NCBI RefSeq assembly: GCF_037975245.1
Contig: NC_092578.1
Coordinates: 17,553,821 to 17,617,820 of the forward strand
Length of the DNA stretch: 64,000 nucleotides
Origin: Apostichopus japonicus
Taxonomy: Eukaryota > Echinodermata > Holothuroidea > Aspidochirotida > Stichopodidae
Direction: 5' to 3'
The notes beneath the pieces are model-generated. The model was not told the DNA's origin. It saw nothing but the letters and a program-made list of their open reading frames with translations, and made no database searches. Shown here one piece after another: positions 12,391 to 63,427 of the stretch (positions are counted from its first letter, which is position 1; the number at the start of each line of letters is the position of its first letter). The translations under genes and the position numbers were made by a program.

Positions 12391-15300
12391 CTGGGTAAAG
12401 ACAGAGAAAGGAAGAGGAACAGAAAACATCCGTGTGAGGGAAAGTGAATGGCAGAAGAGAGAAACTTTAAAAGACAACATTCCTTTGGAAAAGGAATTTT
12501 AGTTCCAGACTTACTGTGTGATCATATATTTAATATCGTGGATGTTGGAAATCAAACCCCAGCATATTTGACAATTTTTGGACACTTGACGACTTAGCAC
12601 TCCCAAGATGAGCCAACAATAAGTACACTAATTTGATGAAATGGCTATTTTCTTCGGAGGGTACGTGCACACATTTTTCGCTCTAAAAAATAAAGAGGCT
12701 GACCAATTCCTCATGCACATAGTCCTGAGATGAAGAGAATTTAATATTTGAAGCCCCACAAACCAAAATAGAGGTATTCAGACCATTCTTTGTTATTGCT
12801 TTGGTGAAGATGAAAACATTGATCGGCGCATGCTTCCATCTCCACCAACACAATAACACAGAACTGGGGAGAATTTCATTTGAAAACCATTTCATTTGGA
12901 AAATTATTGCAAAATCTTGTCATAAAACTTTCAATGGATGTGTGACCCATTTTTCATCGCTCTTCACTACTGTACAGCAAAGGGATATCAAAAACCTGCA
13001 TTCAAGAAAAGATCAATATTTAATTTTCCGGAAACCATTAAACATTAACAACTATTCCCTTAGTGACCTTGAATGAAGGAAAGAACACCAAAACCAGGTC
13101 AACAGTGAAAGAATTGATTTTCGGTTATCAATCACACTGTACACAGTATAGTTGTAACAAGGCATTTCAATGGATTAAAATTGCTTCTCTTTGCTTTCAT
13201 GCAAAATTAAATGTATATTCCAGTGGTGAATAATATTACACTTACAGTACCTTAAAAAGAACAATATTCCATACAGTTTGGGGAGTAATCTACATCCAAT
13301 ATCGCATTGAAAAATGCTACTCAAAATGGTGAAATTGTTACTCTATATCAAAAAAAAAACATTGCAGTGTTTTGTACTGTATACAAACCATAGTAATTTT
13401 TTAGTATAAATGTTATAGTATTTCTAACAACACACAAAGCTACAGATCACAAAGAAACCTGTTATAGCAGCTGTCTTCCTAATTTGACAGATGTTCTTCA
13501 ATAAAACACTAAAACTGGCAAAATTTACTGATTAAACTAAACTAAACTCTGTATTTGTCATCATCAATTCATCATATTGACAAAATTTTTACCAGGTGAA
13601 ACTGACATACAGTAGTTATTCAATTATTTTTGTGCTACAGCCAACACATGTGAGTAGTGTATAGAGTAACTGATATCACCAATAAAATTTTGAGATATAT
13701 TTTAATTAGTTATGAATTGGAGAAGCTGTTTAAATTTTACAAACAGCTTCATGCCGCTGGAAACAAGTACCAGAACATGGATTACGGTATTTGTTCCGAC
13801 CGTAAGTACACACGGGTGTGCCGTGCCGCGTGCATGTTGACATTTGTCATTGATGAGAAGTTTACTCAATATCATAACAACTGAAATGATTACACGGATT
13901 ATGAAATGACAAACAAAGACTGCCGTTAGAGAGACGTAACCTTAATGAAAGAAAATGTAAGCGACCGAGCTACCTCTTTAACAGGATAGTAATTGTAATC
14001 CCAGTACCAAAATTTTCGCGGTAATATGTTAGGCACTATCATTTGCATTGGAACGAACGGGTGGAAAGTCTCGTACTCCCCAGTTCTCGAGTCACCGGCA
14101 GTGACTCCTACGTTCATAAGGCACCTTCCCATATCCACATCTTCCGCACCACCGACTTTGGAAAACGGTTTACACAGTTTCGGGTCGGAGAAACCCTTCT
14201 CGACCAACAACTCCACTGCCTTGTGGCTTAAAATGTATCCGGCTCCTCCGCTCATATAACCTTGACGGACATAGGGCTTGAACTTCCTTCCAAAGAAGAT
14301 GGGCTCGTTTGGGCTGTGGGTCGATACCAGTTTCCTAAGATTCTCGACGATGACGTAGGTATCGTCGTCGGCCTTTAGAAACCAGTCGGCCTCATTTAGA
14401 TAATTATCGTAGATGTGTTGAAAGGCACCTCTCGTCTTCTGCCACAGGTATTCCCTGCCTTCGTGGTCTACAACTGCCACTGTCGGAAAGTCTGTATCTT
14501 CGGAACTGATGAACAAAACTTTGTTGCATCGTTTGGCCCAGGTGGATTTCACGTGGATCGCTTTCGACTGGAGGTTCTTGGGATTAGTCATCACCCAGCA
14601 TAAAATACGTACATGCTGCACCATCCAACCGCTGAGAGCGTCTTCACCTGTGTGTACAGATTAGAAAGGATTACTCTAGGTATAGGTACAAATTGAGCAT
14701 TACAAGACAGTAATAGCCTGCTTTGCTAATAAAAAATAAACATTAATAAAAACAGGGCTTTTCTGTTTCACAAAACATTATTCATGGCTGCCCTGAGTTT
14801 TTGCTGTCTCGCTGAACCTTTTGAAAGCGTTCGAAAACTATCTAGTACTGTGCATAGACATTGACTCCGGAGTAAGAAGTACGCAGTTGTAGTCCTACTT
14901 AAGTAGATGAGCTATAACTTTTATCACTAAACAAATCAATGAAGGACAAAATGGTCTCCTTGCCAGCTAAGAAGGCAAACTGACTGTTCAATCAGAGTCA
15001 ACAGAAACATCTACACTGCACATGGGTTACTGCTCAAGTCCAATATATGAGAATGAGATACGTTAAATGGAAACTGCAATGATCCATGATAACATACTGC
15101 ATTACCAACAACAAAACACAATAGAAGATACCAGACAAAGGTCTGAACACAGCCTGGCTAAGTAGGTAGCATTTAATGTGTCTGGGTGGATAGGCATATA
15201 AGGACTGTATTGAATAAAAAATTTACAAATTATTCAAACAAAACCCATGTATACAAATAAACCACACTCCAAGCCAGTGTGTTTGTTAGTTAGCAAATGA

Positions 15301-15676
15301 GTAAAGAAAATATCATTATATGCAATATCCATAGTTAAGTTTATGACCTAATAAAGCTTACCATATTAACAGACAAGTTGACAAAGATAAAAAAAAAGGG
15401 CGAAAGCTTACCTAGCATAGAGCTGTCCAAGTGCGAGACAAAACGTGAGGCCTCCTCTTCGGATACTTGGTTATGATCATTCACTTCAACGTGTGTGTTA
15501 CCATGGGGATCCTTTATTAGACTTAAAAGGGAACTTTCTCTACTCAGTATATTTAGGTACAAAGTTTCTGACCTGCCTGGCTCTGAAAATTCTATTACAA
15601 CGAACGTCACAATACTTCCAAATATTAAGCCAAATATGAAGTTTAAAAAAATTTGTTGCGTGGATGACCCTGCCAT
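11986..15676 (-). CDS. C1GALT1: C1GALT1-like core-1 beta-1,3-galactosyltransferase (T-synthase), 3 coding exons
   Basis: Adds galactose in beta-1,3 linkage to GalNAc-Ser/Thr, making the core-1 (T antigen) O-glycan in the Golgi. Coding exons on the minus strand are 15412-15676, 13974-14647 and 11986-12390, joined in phases 1 and 0, giving 447 aa. The start is ATG at 15676 in GCCATGG; a more upstream in-frame TTG is ignored. Residues about 8-28 form a signal-anchor helix (type II membrane protein). The catalytic part carries [26 protein letters not shown] (DDD at about 182-184, binding Mn/UDP), [29 protein letters not shown] and [15 protein letters not shown], all colinear with vertebrate C1GALT1. 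It is longer than the vertebrate protein (about 363 aa) because of an acidic Lys/Glu-rich tail of about 80 residues. The next gene upstream is its Cosmc-like relative in the same orientation. Confidence 0.93.
12391..13973 (-). other. C1GALT1-like intron 2
   Basis: About 1.6 kb of AT-rich intron, phase 0. No additional exon or mobile element recognised. Confidence 0.8.
13974..14647 (-). CDS. C1GALT1: C1GALT1-like coding exon 2 (catalytic core)
   Basis: Acceptor CACACAG at 14648; donor GAG|GTAGCT at 13973, phase 0 after Glu of YYPVKE. It carries the DDD metal-binding motif and most of the glycosyltransferase-31 domain. In-frame translation beyond the donor diverges from the family at once, confirming the splice site. 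Confidence 0.92.
14648..15411 (-). other. C1GALT1-like intron 1
   Basis: 764 nt, phase 1, no recognised features. Confidence 0.8.
15412..15676 (-). CDS. C1GALT1: C1GALT1-like coding exon 1 (cytosolic tail, signal anchor, stem)
   Basis: Starts at ATG 15676 in a GCCATGG context and ends at donor AG|GTAAGC (GT at 15411-15410), phase 1. It encodes MAGSSTQQ, a hydrophobic helix and a stem region ending SHLDSSML. An AAAG acceptor-like site at 15691-15690 suggests a separate 5' non-coding exon further upstream. Confidence 0.85.
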
Positions 15677-15689
15677 GGCTCCCTTCAAC

Positions 15690-16460
15690 CTTTACAAGAG
15701 AAACACAATGTTCAGTATAACTTATGATTTTCACACCTATCTTAGGTCATAGGCCTTACTGCCAATTATCATGCTGTAATTAGCCGACACTCTACTTTCA
15801 GTTCTTGCCATGTCTTTTGGGCTGGTATACACAAAAACCTAGGGCTACCTAGGCTAGGCCCTGTACGCCCAATACTGCTCAACGAGTTTGACGAATAAGA
15901 GCGAGCTATTGCCAACCGTTGCTTAGGGCTTAGTTCAGCTGGTAGTGTTCTTAAACCAAGTTTGACCTTCACGGTGAGCAATCAGACGCGTTAATTTTGT
16001 TTGAGGCCTAACGTTACAGCTCTTGCAGGTTATATTATATAACGTTAGGCACAACGCCAGCCTCGTCCCTTTTCGGAAGCTGTGCTAGCCTATTATTCGA
16101 TTTTAGTGTACAGTAGGCTAGTTGGATTAAACATATCTTTTAAGTCGGTAGGTTAGCTGGGCCGACGAATGAGTAAAAATGGCATTCCTAAGTCTTACAC
16201 TGCAACGTTAGCTCCACAGTAAAGAAGTGGTTAGCACAAAGTGCATAAACTGTCGCGAGTGTAACACGTTACAACTCCTCAAACGACTAACGAAAACTTC
16301 TGAGACACCAAACAATCGAGCACGATTACTCCCTAGTTAAAAAAATACCTAACATCGAGTGGCAAAGTTATTTGCACTTCATATGATTCGTTATAAAGCA
16401 AATCCGTCAAGTTACTCAGCTCATATGACTACCCTAGCGTTCACCTTTCTGGAATTTGTA
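15690..16460 (-). promoter_or_regulatory. probable C1GALT1-like promoter / 5' non-coding region
   Basis: Upstream of the start codon base composition becomes less AT-rich and CpG-bearing. The palindromic word AACGTTA or close variants recurs: TAACGTTA near 16009, AACGTTAG near 16041 and 16205, ACGTTACA near 16266. Open-frame and repeat signals are absent. Assignment as promoter rests on position only. Confidence 0.4.
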
Positions 16461-16469
16461 GCTATACAC

Positions 16470-17719
16470 GTACGTACGTAAGTACAACAAATTCTATTGA
16501 CTTTCTGGTTACAAAGCTGAAGCCAGCGCACAATTCATCATCAGATTCATTGCGTTATATGAATGAACATCACAGAGAACAGTTACGTGGAAGTTGCATG
16601 CTCACCATTTCCACGATGGGGGATTCTTAATTTTCAGACTTATTTAGGGAGGGTCTTGAGTTAAATGCTAGAGCAAGAGTCAGAGAAAAATAACATAGAG
16701 AATTTTATGGATCAAGTCTCTCTCATACCTGGGGTACTATAATATGGATTGTACCATTTGATAATAGGTTGGCATCTAGGTTAGGGATTTCAGTAATTGT
16801 ATTTAAATCATTGTGGTTTTCTGTCGTATTATGACATGTATTTATATATGGTGATAGTGTAAACAATACAAGAACATAAATAAAACTCTTGTCTCTGTGT
16901 ATTTTTACCTGCAAATCATGTTTTTTAGGACATGTAATACACATGGTGATACTTAAATGTTCATACAAAAATAAATCGTTTTATTTGTCTCTGCCACATG
17001 TCCGATACCATAAAAGAAAATATAATTACTCCAAAATTGTAGCGATTATTTTTCAATTGCCACATGTCCCATAACAATGTATGTTCAATACAACAACTGT
17101 GTGAGACTCTACACATAAACAACATTACCAAAACCAAAGTTGAAAACACTCCTCTCTGAATAGTGGAATATGCCAGCCGGTTATGAGAGGGACATGATCC
17201 GATTTTACATAAATAGGAGGTGTGTGGCCCCTGGGGTCATTGAAGCCAACTCACATAGGGGTGTCTGGATGTCCTCCCTAAATAATCAAATGCCACTAAT
17301 TAGGGGATAGGGCATCATGAACAATATCAACAACAATATTCACACTCATGTGAAGGCATAGCCTTATATTTCACAATATGTCTTACATAAGAAGAAAATT
17401 GGTAAACTATGATAAACTCAAGTACACATAAAGATGACAGCCAGTTGCTGCACACATTCTTCTCTTTATTGACACTACATATAATACAGTATTAACTACT
17501 AAGATAGTCGCAGGGTGGAGAGAATCATCTATATCATAGTTAAATGTACAAATTGCAGAAGAGGTATAACTTTGCGTATCTAAGACAATATCCAAACTTT
17601 TACAGTATAATGTTACTTGAACTAAAAAAGAATTGTATTTTAATGACATTCTTGATACACTGACAGCTACAAGGAACATTCCAAACGAATCTCATTTTGA
17701 AGATAAATCCACAAGAAGA
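16470..17719. other. spacer between the Cosmc-like and C1GALT1-like genes
   Basis: About 1.25 kb of AT-rich DNA with no supported gene. I searched its minus strand for the usual Cosmc/C1GALT1 C-terminal block (CCSD..V.F) and found none apart from the short exon at 17720-17779. Confidence 0.5.
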
Positions 17720-17779
17720 TTAAAAGAGGGAAGTAACAACTTTTGTAGAACATCTACCACCACTACAACACAGATCCCC
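17720..17779 (-). CDS. C1GALT1C1: candidate Cosmc-like terminal exon (short)
   Basis: After an unusually short intron of 87 nt with a long pyrimidine tract, acceptor GGTAG at 17780 opens in the correct phase onto GDLCCSGGRCSTKVVTSLF and TAA 17722-17720. The Gly-x-x-Cys-Cys-Ser start matches the GPECCS block that opens the last exon of the neighbouring T-synthase. The rest of the usual C-terminus (about 35 residues) is missing. It could be a truncated end, or the true exon may lie elsewhere. Confidence 0.5.
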   Translation of the reverse strand, partial: GDLCCSGGRCSTKVVTSLF

Positions 17780-18769
17780 CTACCACAAGTGAAAATTAAA
17801 AGAAAGAAAAAAGAAGAAAGAAAAGAAAAAGTAAACCTTTTTTTAAGGAGAGAAAGAGTGACTTACCTCCACTGATGGGTGGTGTATATACCTCATATAC
17901 CATGGATTATATTTTATGGTATTGCCTGGCAACTCATGATCAGGAATGAGCATCTGGAATCGGGGTTTCCCCTCAGCATCTTTGGACTCTTTTGTGTGAT
18001 AGACATGTAGAGGCTGTAGGCACTCCACTAATTCCACATCTTCCTTTTTCCCTCCTTTTTGAGCAGGACAAGATGGAATGGCCTCGTGTAGAATACTCAG
18101 GCCCTCCCTGGTCAAAATGGTCACCACTCCCCTGTCCTTGTCATCAGTCAAAACGTGACCGAGATATCCCGGTATGTAAGCTTGGTGTAATAAAGACATG
18201 AAACAGACATTTTCTGGGACCACAAAAATATCGTACTCCAACTTGATGAATAGATCATAATCTAACCTAAACTGATTGTAGACGTACTCGGTTGCCTTCT
18301 TATAACGTTCCCAAGATTGGCTTTCGACTAATTCAAAACCCAGATCGACTGTTCCAATATCTTTCTCTGTACCCTTGGTGAACAGAACAACTTTATGGCA
18401 GTGTTTTTCAGTGACAGCCTTAACAGCAATCATAGCCGGCTTGCTGCCTCTGGCGCACATGACATAGCAAAGAATTTTAATATTTTCTCTTAATAGAGAG
18501 GAGTTGAAGTTTGGATCAAATGGGAATGACTTTACCATACGTGTCATCTCATTATCGATCGTAGGTGTACTAGTCATGTTATTTAGACTTCTTCTCTGAA
18601 GATAAAAGCTGTTTCCTCCCAACGAGTAGTCTCTGTTTCCGTAAAAAATGGGTTGTCTCTTCATCGATGTTGTTCTCTTGGAAATTGCATCGTATTGAGT
18701 AAATATGTAAGAAAGCATGACACCGACGATCAAGCCGAGGGCCAGGGGAAATATATTACTCTTCGCCAT
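17720..18769 (-). CDS. C1GALT1C1: C1GALT1C1/Cosmc-like T-synthase relative (probable chaperone)
   Basis: Cosmc is an ER membrane chaperone that folds C1GALT1. Main coding exon 17867-18769 plus a short candidate terminal exon 17720-17779 give 320 aa (human Cosmc is 318). Start ATG at 18769 lies in GCCATGG. Residues about 5-24 (FPLALGLIVGVMLSYIF) form a signal anchor. Family landmarks follow: IKILCYVMCARG, VTEKHCHKVVLF, ATEYVYNQF, PGYLGHVLTDD, IPSCPAQ and KDAEGKPRFQ. These resemble Cosmc more than T-synthase, notably the C-P-x-Q and DA-x-GK segments. The catalytic DDD is replaced by EYD (about 178-180), which argues against transferase activity. Its last intron has the same position and phase as C1GALT1-like intron 2. 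A divergent inactive C1GALT1 paralogue is the alternative reading. Confidence 0.78.
17867..18769 (-). CDS. C1GALT1C1: Cosmc-like main coding exon
   Basis: Contains 301 codons from ATG 18769 to HHPSVE, ending at donor GGAG|GTAAGT (GT at 17866-17865). Without splicing the frame would add only VSHSFSP and stop. The exon extends 5' as untranslated sequence to acceptor TTTCATTTCAG at 18833. Confidence 0.85.
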
Positions 18770-18832
18770 GGCTTCAGCTACAAACTGTCTGCTCCCTCTT
18801 CTTCCTAGTAAAAGAAGGTCCTTTGTCAAAAA
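18770..18832 (-). other. Cosmc-like 5' UTR part of exon 2
   Basis: From acceptor TTTCATTTCAG (ending 18833) to the ATG. The frame upstream of the ATG is open but has no ATG. Confidence 0.6.
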
Positions 18833-18872
18833 CTGAAATGAAAAGATAACATAAATGTTATATAGACAAGTA

Positions 18873-19147
18873 AGAGCGTGGTGGTCAAGTGGTTAAGGCA
18901 GTGGACTTGTGATCTAAGGTTTGCAGGTTTGAGTCCTGGCCAGATCATTGTATGGCTGAGGCACCCATTATCTCCATTGCCTCTCTAATCCAGGTGTATA
19001 AATGAGGACCTGTGAGATAAATTGTCAGTTCAAGGGTGCTGTTTAGCTGCTGCCATGTTACTAAATATTGTGATGTGCCTTGAAACTGCTATTGGTGGAT
19101 AAGTCTGCACTTAATAAATTTAAATATTATTTTTTATTATTATTAAA
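18873..19147 (+). mobile_element. tRNA-derived SINE, family A
   Basis: Pol III A box TGGTCAAGTGG at 18882-18892 and B box GGTTTGAGTCC at 18926-18936 are spaced as in a tRNA promoter. A tRNA-unrelated body follows (ATCTCCATTGCCTCTCT, CCAGGTGTATAAATG), ending in an AT-rich TTATTATTATTA tail. A second copy lies at 42188-42535. It sits inside the Cosmc-like 5' UTR intron, on the opposite strand to that gene. It does not fold as a tRNA: the 5' half lacks a matching acceptor stem. Confidence 0.8.
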
Positions 19148-42700: not shown

Positions 42701-45700
42701 CCTGACCACTTCCTATTTGTCACCCTTAACCCCCCCCCTTCCCCCACCACATACACCCCATTCTACACAGTACACTTTATAGTCACACAAGTTATATCTT
42801 CATTTTCGCCCACCCACATCCCCTCTCCAACCCACCTTATACTATTCCACCCTCAACTCATCACATGATATATAGTATAAACAGTTTAAGTTTTGTATGC
42901 AATACATTTTTGCTTTTTAAAGGGACAATATCATCATACAAACACTTGACAGATATAAGTATATATGTTGATATGGTCACAAAGTTTCAAGAAGGCCTTA
43001 AAAACACTCTTTGAAGCATAATTGGGCAGTTTTGGAATATCTGTTGCCATGGTTTCACATCTTTCTACTGTACAATATGCTTGTCACAACACTTCACCAT
43101 AATATTAAAGCCAAACAAGGAAGATTTTACTGAATTTTGTTACAATCAAAATGGATAGTTCTTCTCACTTTTCTTCACAAATCCTGTTTAAAAATATGCA
43201 GTTAACCATGAGCAGCAGCTAAACTTTATAAGAAAGAATTTTTCAGTTTTCACCATCATAACATGTGACCTTCAAGCAATCCATGCTTCACTGAATGAAT
43301 GATATTACAATTTTCTAGAAAACTTTCAAAAATGTCTGTGTCATTGTCCCCCTGTCCATCAAATCCCTTATAAGATAATATTGTAAATATTAAAAAGTTT
43401 TGTTACAAATAGTTGGCATATTTGTGTCTGAAAAGTCCTCTCAATTTCTTTGTAGATACATATAGCTGACAGTTTAAATTTATTTTGTTTACAAAATAAC
43501 TGACTGTTTGATGTATAAATATAGTAACGCTCCTTGGGACCTCTCCTCCTCCTCATGTCAATATCCGGTTTATTGTTTTGATAGGTTTCTTCCCTGACCG
43601 ATCTGACCTACTCTACAGCTGGCTGGACCAGCAGACTGGTGAGGTCATACAACGAGGATCTCCATTCCTACTTTTGCCTGATGTGAAGCAATTACCCAAG
43701 TCCTTTAATTTAACTGTTTCGAACCATGGTAAGGACATTTTTTTCTTCATTTGTTGTCATGAAATTGTAATAGGACATGTCGTACTCGAAATCTAGGGAT
43801 CTAATTCCCGAGCTTCAGAGGAGGGGGGTTATTAAGTTCGAATTTTAATGTTATTATGGTCATAGTGCAAAACTACAGTATGACTTATACCTGATATGAA
43901 GCAATTACCCAAGTCCTTTAATTTAACTGTTTCTAACCATGGTATTGAAATTGAATACTCTTTTTTTTTTCTTTATTTGTCATGAAATTTTAATGCTACG
44001 ACGCCGTACTCGAATCTAGGGATCTAATTTCTGAGCTTCAGAGGAGGGGGATTTTTAAGTTAGAATTTTTATGTTTATCATGGTCATAGTGTAAAAAGAA
44101 AAGAAAAGAAACATGAAATAAAAGAAAAATTAAAAAAAGAGGAAAATCTGAGTTCTAGTAATGTTTTTTTGTTTTATTTTCATGTTTTTTTCCTTAATTC
44201 CTGTCTGGCTAATTTCTGTCGGTCCCTGGATACCTGTGTTCATTATGCATTAATGTACAGCTTAGAACACGATAATTGTAAAAAGCGAGGATGTTGTTTG
44301 GCTATGTGTACAGTATTAAAAGGCTTTATGGCTATGTTGTGTCTACAAAGACATGTTAAATTTTTCCTTTAGTTTTAATAATAAGTTACTGCAAACTTCA
44401 TGTAAGTAATACGTACATCAATAATATCAGTTACGGTATTATTAATAGTACCAGTTGCGTTATAATTAAAAACAGCTTTGTCTTCTGTTGAAGACAACCA
44501 TAAATAATACTACAGTTTATGTTTTTGTGTACATTTCTCATGACATACTTTAAGGTAATGACTGGTTCATCACACCATAATAAAAGTATCACTTATAATG
44601 AAAAATTGGGAATTACTGAATATTGAATAAGTACTTAAAAGATAAAAAGACTTCAGATCGATTGGTGAAAGATCTCGCAACCGGGCAAACGTCTGTGCTC
44701 AGCATTAATGAGGAGAAATCTTTCCACAAGTTTTACGAGAACTTTGGCTGTTCACAATAAATCCACTGTACGACATCCTGTCGAGATATTAAATTTTGTA
44801 CCTTCTAGATCTGTATCATTTAATTTCTGCAGTGCTTTTCCTGAAGTACAGAAATCTTATGATTTTTGGTTTTGATGATAATCGTAACCTTTGCAATCAT
44901 GCGTGTGTGTATGTGTGTGTGTATGTATGTGTGTGTGTGTGTGTGTGCGTTTGTGACGCCCAGCTTGTAAACACGATATCTCAAGAAGGGAAGCTTGGAC
45001 AGTTCTCATATTTGGTACATAGGAGTATCTTATTGAGTACAAGAAGCCTATTGTTTTTGGTGTAGGTCAAAGGTCACTTGGGGTCACCAGGGGTCAAATA
45101 GTGAAAAGCTTGTAAACATGATATCTCAAGAAGCAAAGCTTGGATTGATTTCATTTCTGGTATATAGGTTGACCACATTAAGTACAAAAAGCCTATCGTT
45201 TTTGGTGGATATCGAAGGTCATTTAGGGTCACCAGGGGTCAACTTGTTAAAACCTTTTCATAATATACGGTATCTCCCATCGTCCAGCCTATAAGTATAT
45301 GACATGGGCGATTCGCCTCATAAGAAAAGGAGAGCCTACTGACAATTGAAAATGATCGTACGGGCATCCGTAGATTTGAATCTGAACTCGCGACAATATC
45401 CCCATTGACTTAAGTGTGTCGCTAGAAGTCCTGAATTGCTATGTACATATCTACATACATGTACAGTGTCTTCCAAGGCTTGCTTGCAGACCATAGATAT
45501 ATAAAAGTGCTAGAGCTACTTCAACACTTGTGACTCATCCGTATGGATATTTTGCTAAAGAGTTGATGTGATTTCGATGGAATAGTGCACTTGAATGGCG
45601 AAGCATGCCTTCTCTAGAAAATATTTGTAGATCATTGGTAGTTCTGGTTGGATGTAAGTTGCACAGGTACCACGAATTTCAAAACATTTCTTGGCCAGCT

Positions 45701-57700: not shown

Positions 57701-60700
57701 TATATTTTGGTTGAAATTCCTGCAACCTGCTTTGTGTAACTTTGAGTTTTCATCTAAAGTGTTTCAGGAAGTTTACCAAAACAAAGGTTGAATCTCTTAG
57801 AATCAATTTCGAGACTTTGTTTGTTTGATTTATATTTTTAGTATTTCAGGAAACACGAAATGTCACACAATTCTGCTTTAGTAGAAACGTATCCAGGGAC
57901 ATCATGTACCTTAAAAACGTATCACACTTGATTTTGTGCTTCTTGTTTACTTGGAAATGATATCTTGCGTTTCTCCAGGTCGTGTTTCGAAACAAATTGC
58001 TGGGGATCAGAGGTTTCCTTTCCGTTTGAGCGTCACACTAATCTGCCTTTAGTTAAAACATATCCAGGGCCATCATGTACCTTAAAAACGACACATGATT
58101 TTGTGCTATTTGTTTTTACAAGGAATGATATCTTACGTTTTTCCAGGTCGTGTTTCGAGCAAGTTGCTGGGGATCAGAGGTTTCTTTCCAGTTTGATTTT
58201 GATGACGGTACCAGAATAGAGAGGAAAGGAACTGGAAGTTGGTCGCAAGGATTTTCCGCTTCCGTGGCCCACCGTTTCTTGGAAGGCAAGTCACCGATTC
58301 AGTTCTCAAGCAACCTGTATTTCACTGGCAATGATTTTTGCATCACAACTTGAAAAAAAAAAAATGAAAACAAGAGTTGTTGTGTCTAGTCAAGCAAAAT
58401 TGTGCCAAGGAAATGGTTTGATAAGGCTTAATTAAACTAAAGGGCTAAAGGTTGTAAGGAAAAAAGTTTTGTGTCGCATGAAATGGTTTTCTGGAAATGA
58501 TATGACATTAAACCTCTTTTAGAAAAAGTACTTTCCAATGTAAATCAATCCGAGTAGTATTCTGTTGATGCAACTACAGGGGGGGGGGGGGGGGGGCACA
58601 TCAAAAGGTTTGTTAAGTCTCAATACGTGTTTGCTGATGAATCTGGAAAACAAACTTCCGAAGCAGATTCAATGTTTCTTATTCTAAATGCACTCTGACC
58701 ATGTGGGTTTAATGGAGAAAAGCTGTCGCAATCGAAAGAAAGAAATTTATTTTCTGTTGCCCTTATGGCGCACACGATTTATGGTAAAGTGACAAGGCTT
58801 GCCAAATTTGATTGAAGTTTGTAGAATCTACGGACTCGTCAATAAATTTTTATTCAGCTCAAAATGTTTAACGACAGATAACTCAATAAAAATAATATAT
58901 ATTGATATGGATATTGCATGGAACGGTGTCATTTTCACTGAGCTTTCAGTGCAGTAAGCTGAAAAGGTCGAAGTTTAAATTTGCAAACACGTACTGAAAT
59001 TTAGAGTTGTTTTTGAACATCAAAACAAGTGTTTAATTGATCAAAACCTGTAGTGTAGGCCTCCAATACTTTTAGTATTGTTGATGTACATTTTGATCTG
59101 GCCTAATCATGCGTGTAATTTTGTTTCATTTAGATAAAAGTCGCTCTGGGTGTAAACGAAGAAGAGACAATACTTCCTATTGTTTGCGCAGAACCAAACA
59201 CTATTTTACTTCATCAGTTAGCATAAAGAGTGGCTCTATTGGGAAGTTCCTTTAGGTATTATTTGCAGCGAAATTAACCTTTCAAGTATTACCGCAGTTT
59301 TCCTTTTTTGCGAAAGCAGACTGATTTATAGCACTTTGTTGTTTGGGCTCTTACAGAGGGAGAATACTCGGTCTCAGTAACAGCGATTAACCTACTGAAG
59401 AATGTGACGACCGAGTTGGGGGAGCCCTTCCTAGTTCAGATTCCACCGACAGAGGTTCACTTTGAGAAGAACTTCCACGCTTACCGTTTCGGCGAAGTTA
59501 CGTATTTATCTGTGCAGCTCGACTTTGGTAGTCAGGTGGCTTTCAATTGGTCGATGGGAGATCAGACAGACTACATCAACGCTCCTTCTGAAATCCAACA
59601 TGTTTACCATTCTGTCGGGACCTTCACGGTCACCGTGGTAGCGTTCAATAAAGTGCACTATAGCCAGACATCCTGCCTGGTGGCCATCCAGAATCCACTG
59701 CAGGGTAAGTTACACAGAGTATTTTTAAGACCGGCCGCACAGTACAGACAGACTGCATGCGATTCATCCGACTCAACTTGACCTTTGACCCTTCATTTTC
59801 TATAGTTTTAAGACTTCCGACTTGAACCATGCACACTAAACAACTGTTTCTATTGTCGAATGATGCAGAATGATTTCCTGCGATTGGTTGTCTGTGGAAA
59901 CTAAGCGTTTGTAAATGTATGTATGTATTTAAGATCCTCCTGCAAGCAGGAACTTGCAAAGAAGCCATCATTGGCTTATCAAAGCCGCAAGCTGACAGAA
60001 GTCAGTCTCTCAGATTCATATTTTAACGTCCATGATTATGAATTGTCAATTGTCAACAACTCTATAACTGGATGACAAACATTAATCTTGGAGTGACTCG
60101 AAGTGGGGACCTTATGATTGAAAGGCACCGGCGTTAACCACTGAGCTAACACTCCATGAACTGCCGTGCACTGGTAGACTGCCACTCAGGAAACAGCACA
60201 ACTGAAAACTGGCAAAATCTTGATCAGTTGTGGACTTGAGTAGAGACACACTGCCCTACTATCCATGGTATTGTTTACATTACAACATTTGAGTTGAGAC
60301 AGGTTGTCTTCAGTCATGCAGAGTATAGTGGTAGAAAGGGGAAAGGAGGGAGCTACACCTCCCCATCAGAGGATAATCCTGATGCAACTTTTCGTCCAAC
60401 AACTATACTAACAGTATTACAACAGTGTAAAAAATCAGCTGGCACTAGCTCATGAAAGGCAATCTTGTTGGTCTAACATTGGGGAAGACCAAAAAAAAAC
60501 TATACTCGGTTGGCATTTGTTTTCACCACCATTGCAATAATTGATAAAATACTTTTCTTTAGGTGTTGAATTGGTGACGTCCAACCTCCTTGTTGCCACT
60601 AAATCTGAAATTCATCTCGAAGCCAGAACCGTTGGTGATTATGGTCATTGGTTCGACTGGGACGTCGGAGACAACAGGAACGTCCGTCAAACATCCAAGC

Positions 60701-63427
60701 CGACGTTCTCATACTCTTATCGAGAAGCAGGAATGTAAGTATTAGTTCCCGAGAAGCAGGAATGTAAGTATTAGTTCCCGAGAAGCAGGAGTGTAAGAAT
60801 TAGTTCCCGAGAAGCAGGAATGTAAGTATTAGTTCCCGAGAAGCAGGAATGGAAGAATTAGTTCCCGAGAAGCAGGAATGGAAGTATTAGTTCCCGAGAA
60901 GCAGGAATGCAAGTATTAGTTCCCGAGAAGCAGGAATGGAAGTATTAGTTCCCGAGAAGCAGGAATGCAAGTATTAGTTCCCGAGAAGCAGGAATGCAAG
61001 TATTAGTTCCCGAGAAGCAGGAATGCAAGAATTAGTTCCCGATATGCAGGAATGTAAGTATTAGTTCCCGAGAAGCAGGAATGTAAGTATTAGTTCCCGA
61101 GAAGCAGGAATGTAAGTATTAGTTCCCGAGAAGCAGGAATGTAAGTATTAGTTCCCGAGAAGCAGGAATGTAAGTATTAGTTCCCGAGAAGCAGGAATGT
61201 AAGAATTAGTTCCCGAGAAGCAGGAATGTTAGTATTAGTTCCCTCTCGACGTCTTGTGGATCGGTGAAGATGTCGGACATCTTCGTTTTCTGTTAACAGT
61301 GGCCCTGAAAGTTGCTGGATATTTGTTCATTGTGGGTTCAGGAACTTTAGAATTGTCGTAGGCAATGGACACTAAAACACTGTTAATCAGTAGTAGTAGT
61401 CCATTCCATGCAGCTAGAACAGAACAGGATTTTGATGGTGTTTGAGTGCTTCAAATTATGATCAACAGCTTTTACAGCTCAGGTAGTAGTGGATAACAAG
61501 AAGTGCCATTAGCAGTGATTGAATTTTATCTCACAGATGCCTTAAACATGTTAAACTATTACTAAAATGCTATCATAACAGCATAGTCTCCCTCATATCA
61601 TTGTCCGCTCAGCTACTTCTCTCAGGAGTGTCCAAAGTTACCTGAAAAATCTCTTTTTGTAAACTTTGAACTTTGAAAACTTAAATTTTTTTATTAGATA
61701 TAGTAACTTTATATAGTTACTTTATATAGTTTAATACAGACCGTAAGTTTTTCTCACAGTCGCAAAGTTTCACATGAGTATAAGGGGGCACTCCTCTTCA
61801 CCTTCTCACAGATACTTTGTGACGGTGGTCACAGGAAATCACGTCAGTAACGCGACGTCTTCCCCCCTGCAACTGATAATAGAGGCTTCCATATCCCGGC
61901 TGGAGATCCACGTGGAGGACGACGCCTCCCTGATCGGCACGATCACCGTCCTGGCCGCCCAGACGTACTCCGGTAGCGACGTCCGATACATCTGGGACTT
62001 TGGAGACGGTACCCCCGAACTGAACACCCACCAGGCTGTCGTTAACCATAACTACAATAGGTGTGGCTCTTTGCTATTTAATCTCCAAAACTTTGTTGTG
62101 AAGGTTATTACTAACGGTGTATTTCGTTGGTTTGTCATTATTCCAAGCAAATATTTAACTTATTATTAGTATTTTCGTCCGATCTTTTGACGTTTGTTGC
62201 TTTCTTTTTTTTTTGGTGACATTAATAAAATCTTTTCTCTGTTGGTTCCCTCCAAACAGCACGGGTGTGTACCACGTAAGGGTGTCGGGCTACAACCAAG
62301 TCAGTAATAAGAGCGCCACCACCCGGATCTTCGTCCTGGAGCAGATGTGCCATCCACCCAGTCTTGAACTCTTTGGTGTCGAAAACCATTTGGTGAGTCT
62401 GCCATTGGTAGTCCATATGTAGATTAAATGGATGTGTGTGGTATGTTAAAAAATTGGAGTGGGCTTGAGTATTTTTAGGTATCTGCTATTTCTTTGAGAC
62501 CGTCTAGAGGTAAAACAAGGAGAGTTGAAAGGGTTTGTGGTTGGGAGAAGAGGGTCTGGTGAGTGCCCACTCACTCTGGAGAAGGCAGGTTACTGGAGCA
62601 GCCAACCTGGGCTCAAAAGAGATGATTTGGACAATTGAAAAGTGAAGAACCAACAAATTTAATGACAACCTCTTTGCTGATATTTTTTTTAATATGTATG
62701 TATTTTAGATCGTCCTGCAAGCAGGAACTCGCGAAGAGGTCTCATTGGCTTATCAAAGCCGCAAGCTGACCAAAGTCAGTCTCTTAGATTCATATTGAAC
62801 GTCCATGATTATGAATTGTCAATTGTCAACAACTCTATAACTGGACGACATACATTAATCTTGGAGTAACTCGAACTGGGGACCTTATGATTGGAAGGCA
62901 CGGGCGTTAACCACTGAGCTAACACACCTTAACATCTCTGTCATTTTTCCAAAATTGTTTTCTCAAGGTTAAGGAGCCAATGTGCTCTATTCTTTGGGTG
63001 ACTGTTATTACTCGATAAATTTTGAGGTCTTGTGCGCTAGTTAACCAACCAATAATCTGAAAAACAGACATTAGGCTATGTACCACCTTTGTTTTTTTCT
63101 GTTCTTCATTTGCTAAACTGGCTCAAGAGAAAAAAGAAAAAAAATACACACAAATTAATGCTATACATGATGTCGAAAAGAAAAACATTTATATAATTAT
63201 CCAACCTTACGTTCTGGTAGTTCCGACAGTCGGAAGATATCCGATTGGAGGCTGAGGTCAAGATTGACTGTGAGGTCACAAACATGGCGGCCTACAAGTG
63301 GACCTTAAATGGATCCCATAACGTCCTGGGGGTACCACTGCAGGGTAGATTTAATTATCTAGAGAGGAGGACGATGTTTATCCCGAGGAGGACTTTACAG
63401 GTCGGAACTTACTTGGTATCTCTAGAG
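21712..63427 (+). CDS. PKD1: polycystin-1-like receptor, 5' part (20 exons, continues past the window)
   Basis: Large membrane receptor/GPCR-like family working with TRPP channels. In this window 20 exons add up to 4,917 nt with every junction in phase and no stop (1,639 aa). Order: signal peptide (1-26); WSC domain (about 30-95: GCAIYN, CCNSCLDQGYSYAGLQ, CVCF, Cys pairs); then PKD-type repeats with the family's YxWxFGDG signature at about 381 (VDFGDG), 585 (WDFGDD), 850 (RFGDGE), 1030 (VDFGDM), 1138 (WDFHD), 1242 (FDFDDG), 1338 (WSMGD), 1421 (WDVGD), 1507 (WDFGDG), plus degenerate ones; then a Cys-bearing block from about 1556 matching the start of the REJ module. GPS, PLAT and transmembrane parts are not reached. 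Unlike vertebrate PKD1 there are no LRRs, C-type lectin or LDLa domains in this part. Many N-glycosylation sequons. The exact PKD1/PKD1L orthology is unresolved. Confidence 0.88.
24960..25880. repeat. diverged direct repeat, two copies of about 310-350 bp
   Basis: Copies at about 24970-25275 and 25515-25880 share CAAATTGTGGT, CTGTCCCA.GGTTCA, GACCTAGTTT, CAAACAGCT and TTTGGAT.AAATGTGGTCAAG. Old duplication with no coding potential. Confidence 0.7.
27619..27657. repeat. poly-A run followed by (TTAA)n
   Basis: About 21 A residues, then four to five TAAT units. It could be a retrotransposon tail, but no element body is recognised beside it. Confidence 0.6.
28509..28620 (+). CDS. PKD1: polycystin-like exon 2 (WSC, first half)
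   Basis: Acceptor TTAACAG, donor CAGGG|GTAAGT, phases 1 to 2. Encodes WHMGCAIYN...SPAGCCNSCLDQG, the N-terminal cysteines of a WSC domain. Confidence 0.82.
28722..29088 (+). mobile_element. TTAA-flanked MITE, copy 1
   Basis: About 367 bp with TTAA at both ends and imperfect terminal inverted repeats (left TTAAAGAGAGTGAAGACTTG; right, read inward, TTAAAGGTATTTAAGACTCG). The interior matches the element at 40641-41005 in reverse complement over its whole length. No transposase frame. Lies in intron 2. Confidence 0.85.
29089..31685 (+). other. rest of polycystin-like intron 2
   Basis: No supported exon on the plus strand. A diverged pair of segments (about 30810-30960 and 31200-31335) shares TTGGTGAAGAG.GATTAACTGTGG and GCTGTGTGTAAT.TGTTAT. 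A weak minus-strand acceptor/donor pair at 31022-31111 is treated under rejected items. Confidence 0.5.
31686..31778 (+). CDS. PKD1: polycystin-like exon 3 (WSC, second half)
   Basis: Acceptor TTTCTCTAG, donor GAGAG|GTAAGT, phase 2 to 2. Encodes YSYAGLQENQCVCF, the characteristic WSC Y-A-x-x-x-x-x-C-x-C segment. Confidence 0.82.
32141..32215 (+). repeat. G-rich purine tract with quadruplex potential
   Basis: About 75 nt of almost pure G/A with more than ten runs of three or more G separated by one to three bases. The plus strand could form G-quadruplexes in the nascent intron 3 RNA. Confidence 0.8.
32538..32704 (+). CDS. PKD1: polycystin-like exon 4 (end of WSC, linker)
   Basis: Acceptor ACATTCAG; encodes CGSLPCGGNSSLSLYTTYGP and a linker. 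Donor ACAG|GTTCGT is weak at +3/+4, but the alternative GTAAAC four bases downstream would shift the frame. Confidence 0.78.
33449..33604 (+). CDS. PKD1: polycystin-like exon 5 (PKD-like repeat)
   Basis: Acceptor CTCTTCCAG, donor ATTG|GTAAGA, phase 1 to 1. Contains VGYTWYLNGS and FDAEGLYAI, the first degenerate PKD fold. Confidence 0.82.
34217..34530 (+). CDS. PKD1: polycystin-like exon 6
   Basis: Acceptor TTTTTCAG, donor TATCAG|GTAGAT, phase 1 to 0. Finishes one PKD repeat (VANNSVSQ) and begins another (NVTFSWQFGGE). Confidence 0.82.
34531..36862 (+). other. polycystin-like intron 6
   Basis: 2.3 kb, phase 0. No exon, mobile element or clear repeat recognised. Confidence 0.6.
36863..36949 (+). 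CDS. PKD1: polycystin-like exon 7
   Basis: Acceptor GTCGACAG, donor GCATG|GTAAGT, phase 0 to 0, 29 codons. Encodes VYTFVEKGIVTVSVNATNYL, the G-x-V-x-V-x-A-x-N closing strand of a PKD repeat. Confidence 0.85.
37313..37525. repeat. GTGGGTCA minisatellite with 25-nt palindromes
   Basis: Irregular array of GTGGGTCA units spaced by AAT and TTCTCTTT. Twice (about 37387 and 37480) it contains a perfect inverted repeat of arms TGTGGGCCACAA and TTGTGGCCCACA around a single T. Intronic (intron 7). Confidence 0.85.
38886..40143 (+). CDS. PKD1: polycystin-like exon 8 (large multi-PKD exon)
   Basis: 1,258 nt, the largest exon. Acceptor CCCCCCTAAG, donor AATG|GTAGGC. Holds about four PKD-like units, including TLSVDFGDGTSYS, GVTYHWWLL and SAIWDFGDDTRKS, each ending in a G-V-x-x-V/L-x-x-x-N strand. 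Rich in N-x-S/T. Distinctly GC-richer than flanking introns. Confidence 0.93.
40641..41005 (-). mobile_element. TTAA-flanked MITE, copy 2 (inverted)
   Basis: 365 bp, bounded by TTAA (40641-40644 and 41002-41005). Terminal inverted repeats are TTAAAGGCATTGAAGACTCG on the left and, read inward, TTAAAGGCATCAAAGACTCG on the right. Better preserved than copy 1. Non-autonomous, in intron 8. A TTAA target is typical of piggyBac-type insertion, but the termini do not match the classic CCC/GGG ends, so the superfamily is open. Confidence 0.88.
41315..41476 (+). mobile_element. tRNA-derived SINE family B, 5'-truncated
   Basis: Matches the 3' two-thirds of the family B elements at 59.9 and 62.7 kb: TAATCATGGACGTTAAA, TGACTTCAGTCAGCTTGC, GCCAATGAGGCTTCTTCGC, CTTGCAGGAGGATC. 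Ends in (ATAC)n/CATACATACATA. The promoter-bearing head is missing. Confidence 0.85.
42188..42535 (+). mobile_element. tRNA-derived SINE family A, second copy
   Basis: B box GGTTCGAGCCC at 42216-42226, then CTGGCCAGATCATTG and ATCTCCATTGCCTCTCT as in the 18.9-kb copy, with a longer body and an end resembling AGCGCTATATAAGTGTG followed by a GTATGTATGT tail. The A-box half is lost next to a poly-G run. Confidence 0.82.
43585..43728 (+). CDS. PKD1: polycystin-like exon 9
   Basis: Acceptor TTTTGATAG, donor CATG|GTAAGG, phase 1 to 1. Encodes LLYSWLDQQTGEV and FNLTVSNH, one PKD-like repeat. Its 3' half is duplicated, in decayed form, 213 bp downstream. Confidence 0.85.
43890..43941 (+). pseudogene. 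decayed copy of the 3' half of exon 9
   Basis: Repeats the last 52 coding bases of exon 9 (PDMKQLPKSFNLTVSNH, Val changed to Met) but has no acceptor in front, and its donor has become GTATTG instead of GTAAGG. It is part of a tandem duplication with units at about 43677-43870 and 43890-44096, offset about 213 bp. Confidence 0.85.
44906..44953. repeat. (GT)n microsatellite
   Basis: About 45 nt of alternating GT with occasional GTAT. Confidence 0.9.
44964..45247 (+). repeat. tandem repeat, two units of about 140 bp with AGGTCA half-sites
   Basis: Two copies share GTAAACAYGATATCTCAAGA, AAGCTTGGA, AGTACAA.AAGCCTAT.GTTTTTGGTG and a closing cluster of AGGTCA/GGGTCA words. The first has a perfect DR1, AGGTCAAAGGTCA, at 45064-45076. 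Diverged relatives recur at about 45900-46060 and 47135-47590. Confidence 0.8.
47135..47590 (+). repeat. diverged AGGTCA-bearing repeats, about 3 units
   Basis: Segments near 47245, 47405 and 47550 each read GAAGGTCATTTGAGGTCA or close to it, followed after a few bases by another GAGGTCA, with AATACAAGAACCCTATTGTTTTT-like lead-ins. They are related to the pair at 44.96-45.25 kb. Confidence 0.7.
48701..49072. mobile_element. hAT-type non-autonomous transposon (MITE)
   Basis: 372 bp with terminal inverted repeats CAGGGGTGGGCAACCT (left) and GGTTGCCCACCCCTG (right), flanked by the identical 8-bp duplication CTCTAAGG (48693-48700 and 49073-49080). GGCCGC-rich subterminal blocks are typical of hAT MITEs. 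No transposase. Inserted in intron 9, about 200 bp upstream of exon 10. Confidence 0.93.
49280..49392 (+). CDS. PKD1: polycystin-like exon 10
   Basis: Acceptor CTGTTACAG, donor CTATG|GTAAGT, phase 1 to 0. Encodes VGSKWILANV and YAEVGSDVHFEAM, leading into the next PKD repeat. Confidence 0.8.
49393..53233 (+). other. polycystin-like intron 10
   Basis: 3.8 kb, phase 0. Contains (AAAAG)n at about 49950-49980, a 47-bp tandem array at 51.35-51.59 kb and C-rich tracts near 51610, 52510, 52790 and 52945. No supported gene. Confidence 0.6.
51354..51590. repeat. tandem array, about 6 copies of a 40-50 bp unit
   Basis: Each unit contains ATCTTATAACAATAGGCCTT or a near match followed by a T-rich spacer ending in TCTATTGT. 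Copies are 75-90 percent alike by eye. Confidence 0.85.
53234..53469 (+). CDS. PKD1: polycystin-like exon 11
   Basis: Acceptor CTTCTCTCAG, donor TCAGG|GTAAGT, phase 0 to 2. Contains NVRFGDGEV and HAYSSPASYDINM. Confidence 0.85.
53470..56076 (+). other. polycystin-like introns 11 and 12 (either side of exon 12)
   Basis: AT-rich with poly-C tracts near 54890, 55030 and 55685. No mobile element or extra exon recognised. Confidence 0.6.
54531..54660 (+). CDS. PKD1: polycystin-like exon 12
   Basis: Acceptor CATTTCACAG, donor CTAAG|GTAAGA, phase 2 to 0. Contains EGTNIVYEWQVTL, a PKD core strand. Confidence 0.83.
56077..56645 (+). CDS. PKD1: polycystin-like exon 13
   Basis: Acceptor TCTATTTCAG, donor GAATC|GTGAGT, phase 0 to 2. 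Contains SGLYNVTVTASND, IQVDFGDMVVD, IKVTVKNAVSS and VVFEWDFHDAYG, about two and a half PKD repeats. Confidence 0.92.
56773..57112. repeat. 10-bp periodic minisatellite (CTTCACATAG / CTCCACAGAG)
   Basis: About 34 decamers related to CTTCACATAG, CTCCACAAAG and CTTCACAGAG in a loosely repeating higher order. Lies in the short intron 13. The open frame through it (Ser/His/Leu-rich) is a repeat artefact. Confidence 0.88.
57290..57512 (+). CDS. PKD1: polycystin-like exon 14
   Basis: Acceptor GCTACTTAG, donor CACCG|GTAAGC, phase 2 to 0. Contains GEYNVTVRATNDIQSSP. Confidence 0.85.
57979..58030 (+). pseudogene. decayed upstream copy of the start of exon 15
   Basis: A 168-171 bp tandem duplication (about 57856-58026 and 58027-58198) copied the end of intron 14 and the first part of exon 15. 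The upstream copy keeps an acceptor (GTTTCTCCAG) but an inserted base after GTCGTGTTTCGA shifts the frame and a TGA follows at 58027. No donor follows. Confidence 0.85.
58147..58285 (+). CDS. PKD1: polycystin-like exon 15, GC donor
   Basis: Acceptor GTTTTTCCAG; donor GGAAG|GCAAGT is a GC-AG splice site with an otherwise perfect match to the donor consensus. Phase 1 joins to exon 16 to read HRFLEEGEYSVSVTA, which restores a canonical PKD ending. Contains SFQFDFDDGTR. A broken partial copy of this exon lies 168 bp upstream. Confidence 0.85.
58286..59356 (+). other. polycystin-like intron 15
   Basis: GC-AG intron, with an 18-nt poly-G run near 58580. Nothing else recognised. Confidence 0.65.
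59357..59704 (+). CDS. PKD1: polycystin-like exon 16
   Basis: Acceptor GCTCTTACAG, donor CAGG|GTAAGT, phase 1 to 1. Contains VAFNWSMGDQTD and HSVGTFTVTVVAFNKV. Confidence 0.88.
59913..60156 (-). mobile_element. tRNA-derived SINE family B, full length
   Basis: Read on the minus strand: A box TAGCTCAGTGG (60148-60138), a B-box-like ACTTCGAGTCA (60104-60094), a tRNA-unrelated body and a CATACATACAT tail. The head resembles a tRNA with a GTTAACGCC D-arm. Lies in intron 16. Confidence 0.88.
60563..60734 (+). CDS. PKD1: polycystin-like exon 17 (donor seeds a minisatellite)
   Basis: Acceptor TTTCTTTAG, donor GGAAT|GTAAGT, phase 1 to 2. Contains WFDWDVGDNRN and ends SYSYREAG. The last 14 coding bases and the donor are the first unit of an 18-copy tandem repeat. 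Reading past the first donor hits TAA within it, so only the first donor preserves the protein. Confidence 0.87.
60721..61249 (+). repeat. 29-bp minisatellite carrying the exon 17 splice donor, 18 copies
   Basis: Unit starts CGAGAAGCAGGAATGTAAGT and ends ATTAGTTCC. The first unit is the real end of exon 17 plus the first 15 bases of intron 17. By unit the donor dinucleotide is GT in 1-4 and 12-18, GG in 5, 6 and 8, and GC in 7 and 9-11. Copies are almost identical, so expansion is recent. Confidence 0.95.
61250..61811 (+). other. rest of polycystin-like intron 17
   Basis: Non-repetitive AT-rich sequence leading to the acceptor of exon 18. Confidence 0.7.
61812..62060 (+). CDS. PKD1: polycystin-like exon 18
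   Basis: Acceptor CTTCTCACAG, donor AATAG|GTGTGG, phase 2 to 2. Contains VTVVTGNHVSN and RYIWDFGDGTPE, the best PKD consensus in the window. Confidence 0.9.
62260..62392 (+). CDS. PKD1: polycystin-like exon 19 (last PKD, start of REJ)
   Basis: Acceptor CCAAACAG, donor TTTG|GTGAGT, phase 2 to 0. Encodes GVYHVRVSGYNQVSN then EQMCHPPSLEL, comparable with the C-x-x-P-x-V block opening the REJ module in polycystin-1. Confidence 0.87.
62692..62930 (-). mobile_element. tRNA-derived SINE family B, third copy
   Basis: Same orientation and nearly the same sequence as the 59.9-kb copy, including TTAGCTCAGTGGTTAACGCC on the minus strand and an ATGTATGTATTTTAGAT tail. Lies in intron 19. Confidence 0.88.
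63230..63427 (+). CDS. PKD1: polycystin-like exon 20 (REJ module)
   Basis: Acceptor TCCGACAG, donor AGAG|GTAATT, phase 0 to 0. EAEVKIDCE, AAYKWTL and RRTLQVGTYLVSLE follow the pattern of the first REJ segment of polycystin-1. The gene runs on beyond the window. Confidence 0.83.

Follow-up and report, generated by a model that had tools for sequence, protein, structure and literature searches.

A splice donor repeated in a polycystin-1-like gene

The sequence analysed here, which we call the window, is a stretch of 64,000 nucleotides from the sea cucumber Apostichopus japonicus (assembly GCF_037975245.1, contig NC_092578.1, positions 17,553,821 to 17,617,820 of the forward strand); coordinates below are those of the window unless another locus or contig is named. 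The window carries a gene that, by its predicted domains, is polycystin-1-like, and one exon of this gene ends in a minisatellite in which the exon end and its splice donor are repeated 18 times (Table 1). The identity of the gene, which the earlier note had called polycystin-like, is borne out by PKD repeats, by REJ, PLAT and Polycystin_dom (the polycystin channel domain) in exons predicted beyond the downstream end of the window, and by a partial match to NCBIfam TIGR00864, which reaches 105 bits where the whole-protein cut-off is 1861. A search of the PDB with the PKD stretch gave no match at E 0.001.

Table 1. Positions of the exons, donors and duplicated junctions of the polycystin-1-like gene (a slash marks an exon-intron boundary)
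Feature	Position	Strand	Basis
Second donor duplication, 2 copies of ~213-223 bp	43670..44096	+	Tandem Repeats Finder (TRF), local comparison
Acceptor duplication, 2 copies, 168-bp shift (acceptor 58147, copy upstream)	57876..58200	+	
Exon with putative GC donor AAG/GCAAGT (-5.9 kcal/mol), putative GC-AG intron	58147..58285	+	Reading-frame continuity only
Polycystin-like exon, PKD repeat, phase 2 end at GGAAT	60563..60734	+	Exon chaining; Pfam PKD completed by junction
Minisatellite of 18 x 29 bp over exon end and splice donor	60721..61243	+	TRF, unit table, pattern search
Authentic donor GTAAGT, unit 1 (AAT/GTAAGTAT)	60735..60740	+	Unit table, exon chaining, frames
In-frame TAA reached if the first donor is passed, common to all 17 later-donor products	60736..60738	+	
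Run of adjacent units (5-11) carrying GG or GC in place of GT	60837..61039	+	Unit table
Next exon, acceptor ctcacag/ATACTT, completing REAG-I-YFVTVV of the PKD repeat	61812..62060	+	Exon chaining, Pfam

Exons were modelled with a chaining script that assembles in-frame exons from codon use and splice signals, run on the window alone and then with 50 kb more; the limits of exon 58147-58285 and of the exon at 43585 were drawn manually, following the reading frame. Both runs ended exon 60563-60734 at the donor of unit 1 and joined it to the acceptor at 61812. Because the script was trained partly on this same exon and makes only in-frame joins, its agreement is not independent proof, and completion of the PKD domain is the better test of the junction. 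Against the Pfam PKD domain, the product of the join (...SYSYREAGIYFVTVV...) gives 36.7 bits, compared to 20.2 for the truncated end.

The array consists of 18 head-to-tail units (TRF: period 29, 18.0 copies, 95% matches, score 941), each made of 14 exonic and 15 intronic bases (GTAAGT and nine more), with the consensus CGAGAAGCAGGAAT/GTAAGTATTAGTTCC. TRF and the unit table thus agree with the earlier note on copy number, period and the makeup of the unit; the span of 60721..61249 given there was right at its start and too long at its end, since the array stops at 61242/61243. All 18 units are 29 bp long, each differs from the consensus by zero to two changes, and 6 of the 29 columns vary. No further copies of the unit were present in the window when as many as 3 mismatches were allowed on either strand, and 100 shuffles yielded 0 matches. 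The array lies at a single site, on contig C18, in the 671.6-Mb assembly (671,581,487 bases, 35 contigs). We found no clear periodic dip that would mark a higher-order repeat, and the mean difference between units grows roughly with the distance between them. A DNA hairpin as the motor of the array found no support (four-unit fold, z -0.44), and the RNA fold of the array is mild (z -2.07).

The donor dinucleotide is GT in 11 units (1-4 and 12-18), GC in four (7, 9, 10 and 11) and GG in three (5, 6 and 8), a tally identical to that of the earlier note. Its description of the GT donors as identical or nearly identical to the true one holds exactly for the eight that keep GTAAGT and approximately for the others, which read GTAAGA (units 3 and 17) or GTTAGT (unit 18). 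The seven units with a base other than T at +2 are contiguous, an arrangement with a probability of 0.0004.

Tandem arrays are well known for causing assembly errors. However, the assembly agrees in size with the published high-fidelity (HiFi) assembly of A. japonicus, given as 671.6 Mb in 34 scaffolds (PMC10344927), whose reads, with a mean length of 14.7 kb, would easily span 523 bp, and the differences among units fall in an ordered block pattern, so that we regard an artefact as highly improbable.

Products and U1 pairing of the later donors

As the earlier note had it, a transcript that passes the first donor would meet a stop inside it: all 17 later unit positions yield a predicted protein that ends ...REAGM at the same TAA. 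Seven of the later units (2, 4 and 12-16) have an 11-nt donor identical to that of unit 1, and their U1 pairing computes to the same -7.3 kcal/mol, which is weaker than for most of the gene's other modelled donors. Pairing is -5.3, -4.3 and -3.4 kcal/mol for units 3, 17 and 18, respectively. The GC units pair at -3.3, -3.3, -3.3 and -0.3 kcal/mol and the GG units at -3.1, -6.1 and -6.1 kcal/mol, the last two values being reached through pairing that skips position +2; GG is not known to serve as a donor dinucleotide. The GC donor modelled at the end of exon 58147-58285 points to use of GC donors in this gene where G stands at -1, and the GC units of the array, because they have T at -1, are probably silent.

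The earlier note also proposed that the array might be a sink for U1 small nuclear ribonucleoprotein (snRNP), and one could imagine that eight copies of a U1-complementary 8-mer within 523 bp titrate U1 snRNP or sponge splicing factors. U1 is very abundant, which counts against such a role, and no sequence feature marks the array for it. In addition, the 29-nt period is shorter than the U1 footprint of 35 nt (PMC6002489), and at most 6 of the 11 GT units could be bound simultaneously. We found no evidence for a sink and consider it exceedingly unlikely. The array might instead be a source from which new exons or introns arise: an 18-nt segment runs from TTAG to the following donor and preserves phase, such that it could serve as an in-frame microexon adding ISREAG, and intron gain from repeats of this kind (termed mirages) has been proposed for lancelet globins (PMC3087553). 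Nevertheless, the TTAG acceptor scores only -5.9 to -9.8, compared to 0.5 to 7.3 for the gene's 15 modelled acceptors (all scored with one weight table), and we think this outcome very improbable.

Donor arrays at other exon ends

We surveyed the genome for three copies of AGGTRAGT at a spacing of 18-48 bp, counting overlapping matches, a pattern that would miss the array of the window itself. This gave 782 matches genome-wide, and loci were drawn from the 100 of these that were listed, which extend to 13.56 Mb of contig C2 and comprise 10 loci. Among the matches listed, 5 of the 10 loci have a family-supported exon ending at the first donor: L043 (Saf4_Yju2), L046 (TIL), L049 (Glyco_transf_21) and L051 (Y_phosphatase), all by Pfam, and L050 (serine palmitoyltransferase 1). 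L053, a chance find, has a 76-bp unit with 19 motif copies at the end of an Aa_trans exon. A second and stricter pattern, a triple of the 9-mer AAGGTAAGT, gave 43 matches at 8 loci genome-wide, namely L052 and seven others. In total, and setting the window's array aside, 6 of 18 other loci examined hold a supported exon-anchored donor array. The arrays can be long: that of L043 (C1:1921200-1924200, 1499-2687) has 30 copies of a 39-bp unit with GT in 30/30 and with A rather than G at -1 in many units, and that of L050 (C2:10267500-10272500, 1604-3407) has 47 copies of a 38-bp unit with GT in 47/49 units. The Saf4/Yju2-like family of L043 is one of splicing factors.

In four loci, the window, L049, L050 and L051, a conserved domain is restored when the first donor is joined to an acceptor further downstream. 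In L051 the join reads LLVHCSAGAGRTGVL and contains the phosphatase active site HCSAGAGRTG, raising the Pfam score from 41.0 bits for the upstream exon alone to 90.2 bits. The join in L050 (GFYGTIDVHLFLEEKLAQFFG) has serine palmitoyltransferase 1 as its best PDB match (7yiu, E 6e-26), and that in L049 lengthens the GT21 match (57.0 versus 42.0 bits). We found no convincing next exon within the flanks examined of L043, L044, L046, L052 and L053.

At the remaining loci no supported exon was seen. L044 and L052 have open frames at the first donor without a Pfam match; open frames were the sole criterion for L045, L047, L048, L055, L056, L058, L059 and L060, and L057 and L061 were put through Pfam as well, these two being the only ones of the seven AAGGTAAGT loci other than L052 to which Pfam was applied. 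The frame of L052 (C2:13553500-13556700, reverse strand, ~1481-1675) is open throughout its 33-bp array, which encodes an 11-residue repeat ending VTK/VS; this may be coding repeat sequence, or else a donor array from which use of alternative donors would add entire repeats. The array of L048 (C1:12873300-12878200, reverse 1359-3311; ~C1:12874890-12876842) has 65 copies of a 30-bp unit and no visible exon, and 56 of 64 units have GT at the donor-like site.

A crude extrapolation from the five supported loci, by rows (100/782) or by bases (~35/672 Mb), gives ~40 to 95 supported arrays of the AGGTRAGT pattern class genome-wide.

Frequency of donor arrays compared to control motifs

An excess of donor arrays over arrays of control motifs would favour targeted amplification of donors. 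The reversed motif gave 707 triples compared to 782 for the donor motif (overlapping matches in both), and as single motifs there are 44,102 occurrences of AGGTRAGT and 59,166 of its reverse. Genome-wide, triples of AAGGTAAGT occupy 8 loci and those of a control 9-mer 7 (manual locus count). Over contig C1 and the first 13.6 Mb of C2, among the matches listed, we counted by hand 10 donor-motif loci and 6 reversed-motif loci, two of the latter being tetranucleotide microsatellites. Within the polycystin-1-like gene, 3 of 30 junctions are locally copied (36/50 or better), compared to 5.6% of the region's positions (binomial P ~0.23), and junctions are thus not clearly preferred for local duplication. 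Targeted amplification of donors is unsupported by these numbers; donor arrays are about as common as arrays of arbitrary motifs, with a modest excess per motif being possible.

Do the inner donors decay?

The earlier note suggested that part of the array is losing donor strength. We compared variation in the 9-nt donor to that in the rest of the unit, leaving out the first unit of each array and, for arrays selected by their donors, also one perfect triple; the rows used were 25/30 for L043, 3/9 for L044, 6/8 for L046, 7/12 for L049, 41/49 for L050, 10/15 for L051, 16/18 for the window and 0/5 for L052. Pooled over seven arrays including the window's, departures from the consensus affect 55 of 972 cells in the donor (5.7%), compared to 214 of 3063 elsewhere (7.0%). 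Among the six other arrays the donor varies less than the rest in L044 (14.8 versus 28.3%, three rows), L049 (1.6 versus 8.7%), L050 (5.7 versus 9.2%) and L051 (4.4 versus 8.3%) and slightly more in L043 (3.6 versus 2.8%) and L046 (9.3 versus 3.5%), with none of them extreme among circular shifts. GT is intact in 124 of 128 units of seven other exon- or open reading frame-anchored arrays (manual sum); these seven were found through intact donors, with one triple removed from each, which biases the test towards conservation. In the window's array the donor varies by 8.3% and the rest by 0.6%, which ranks 2 of 29 circular shifts.

Such variation could arise if strong decoys cost the protein and selection therefore weakened the inner copies. 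In the window's array, 4 of the 6 variable columns (P = 0.056) and 5 of the 7 distinct variants (P = 0.033) fall in the donor 9-mer, both counts made post hoc; each variant donor pairs worse with U1 than unit 1 does, and the slight excess in L043 and L046 points the same way. Selection of this kind is nonetheless improbable, given the lower donor variation in the pooled data and in four of six other arrays, the GT retained in nearly all units of the seven arrays (selected, again, by intact donors), and the confinement of the weakened units to one block. Loss of donor strength is therefore no rule, and general decay of donors is not supported in the arrays examined. That units 5-11 form a single contiguous block fits a couple of mutations spread by duplication of units.

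Probable chance growth of a minisatellite over the junction

We consider it likely, from the sequence, that ordinary minisatellite growth happened to fall on this junction and was tolerated through use of the first donor or destruction of misspliced RNA. A 29-bp segment, comprising the last 14 coding bases of the PKD exon and the first 15 bases of the intron, would have been duplicated and expanded to 18 copies, presumably through slippage or unequal exchange, in the manner usual for minisatellites of this genome. Since growth would have proceeded into the intron, the outermost (first) donor would still join the exon to the next, and the 17 inner units would simply be intron. Tolerance would follow if the first donor is used, or if transcripts from inner donors stop at once and are removed, putatively by nonsense-mediated decay. 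The GC and GG block could reflect drift together with local copying of units, and the copy number of the array plausibly varies between individuals, as the earlier note predicted, by analogy with the lancelet and human CBS arrays described below.

Inner donors might instead be used to a variable extent, so that output of the full protein falls as copies are added and the array acts as a tunable brake through truncation and RNA decay. The seven inner units that match the true donor in all 11 nt and in U1 energy, the immediate stop that follows every inner donor, and the human CBS 31-bp variable number of tandem repeats (VNTR), in which more repeats reportedly lower activity (PMC5188458), are consistent with such a brake. 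On the other hand, the retention of GT in every unit of the Yju2-like L043 and in all but two of L050 argues against a steep cost per copy. Both of these genes are ones that we would expect to be essential. We regard a brake of this kind as unlikely.

Several points weigh against chance growth with tolerance by the host. Variation in the window's array is focused on the donor beyond what pure drift would give, although the statistics are weak and post hoc. At 12 of the 18 loci examined no family-supported exon was seen at the first donor. Per occurrence of the motif, donor triples are somewhat commoner than reversed ones (782/44,102 versus 707/59,166); as a guess, real donors could make up some half of the AGGTRAGT sites, which would explain this excess. 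Where two comparable donors compete, the intron-proximal one is described as favoured (PMC6002489), the opposite of what is needed here. Finally, the lower activity reported for CBS with more repeats (PMC5188458) and the reduced yield reported of normal transcript from a 68-bp boundary duplication in the same gene (PMC7277093) imply that tolerance of the array may be incomplete.

Relation to known boundary minisatellites

Repeats of this kind, with a unit that spans an exon-intron boundary and a splice signal in many but not all copies, as in the window, have been called mirages, with lancelet Adh3 cited as a case that shows somatic instability; lancelet mirages seem to be without effect on regular splicing (PMC3087553). 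A second paper adds PGBD5 and cites troponin C (PMC3902484). The lancelet examples (Adh3, the globins BflGb6 and BflGb9, PGBD5 and troponin C) affect both donors and acceptors, as do the duplications in the polycystin-1-like gene. They differ in copy number, the window's array having 18 units and two lancelet BflGb6 haplotypes 3 or 6, and in host, which is no part of the definition of a mirage and is here an echinoderm. A lancelet as the source of this assembly is ruled out by the mitochondrial code of COX1: among codes 2, 5, 9 and 13, only table 9 (AAA as asparagine) gives STNHKDIG and GGFGNWLIP. These residues are conserved in COX1, and table 9 is common to echinoderms and flatworms. COX1 lies on contig C35 (16,099 bases); the 31-kb contig C29 holds five separate COX1 pieces and is likely either a mitochondrial contig that was rearranged or concatenated or a nuclear copy.

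The closest human counterpart is the CBS VNTR, c.1444_1467+7(16_21), which has 16-21 copies, a fixed unit length and single-base substitutions (PMC2630376) and lies at the boundary of exon 13 and intron 13 (PMC1395315, PMC5188458). By its name the 31-bp unit has 24 exonic and 7 intronic bases and therefore carries the donor, as the window's unit does, and both keep a constant unit length. The CBS VNTR is polymorphic, with copy number reported to affect enzyme activity (PMC5188458), whereas the window's array is known from one assembly. A further CBS variant, 844ins68, duplicates an intron-exon boundary and resembles the acceptor duplication at 57876-58200; one of its copies is strongly preferred in splicing, and the mRNA produced is normal (PMC2630376), with yield reported to be reduced (PMC7277093), and it is one 68-bp duplication rather than a long array.

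Judged by titles and abstract openings, none of the papers listed in a search of an open-licence library reports donor arrays in sea cucumbers. The kind is thus already known, from lancelet mirages and the human CBS VNTR; new are the echinoderm host and the recurrence in several genes. A phenomenon of lancelets and one human gene is thereby widened to an echinoderm, which suggests that it occurs wherever minisatellites are common.

We put forward tentatively, as possible and somewhat short of probable, that the genome holds a class of exon-anchored donor minisatellites (tens, perhaps at least 100), some with 30 to 47 near-identical GT copies, in which the spliceosome reliably picks the outermost, intron-distal donor. 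If so, these loci would be natural experiments on the choice of one 5' splice site among many identical ones, and the choice of the outermost donor would run against the preference for the intron-proximal site that is described where two donors compete. According to PMC6002489, it is not known what leads the spliceosome to favour one of two comparable 5' splice sites. With 18 to ~47 near-identical donors at real exon ends, and domains that demand the first one, donor choice becomes testable.

Other duplicated junctions and features of the window

The two further duplicated junctions of the polycystin-1-like gene are each present in two copies. Downstream of the donor at 43728 lies a single copy of it, in which 4 of 59 exonic bases differ and the donor is weaker (ATG/GTATTG compared to ATG/GTAAGG). 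The upstream copy of the acceptor retains TTTCTCCAG/GTCGTG, and its exonic part has a 1-base length change, read by eye.

The window has no Rfam match at gathering scores, and ARAGORN finds no tRNA in it; by eye, a tRNA-like sequence on the minus strand at ~60060-60150 (GTTAGCTCAGTGGTTAACGC) is suggestive of a short interspersed nuclear element. On the same strand, 13929-18892 contains coding stretches resembling core 1 beta-1,3-galactosyltransferase: 13929-14660 matches PDB 7q4i (E 1.4e-80), and the frame at 17843-18892 appears by eye to be related.

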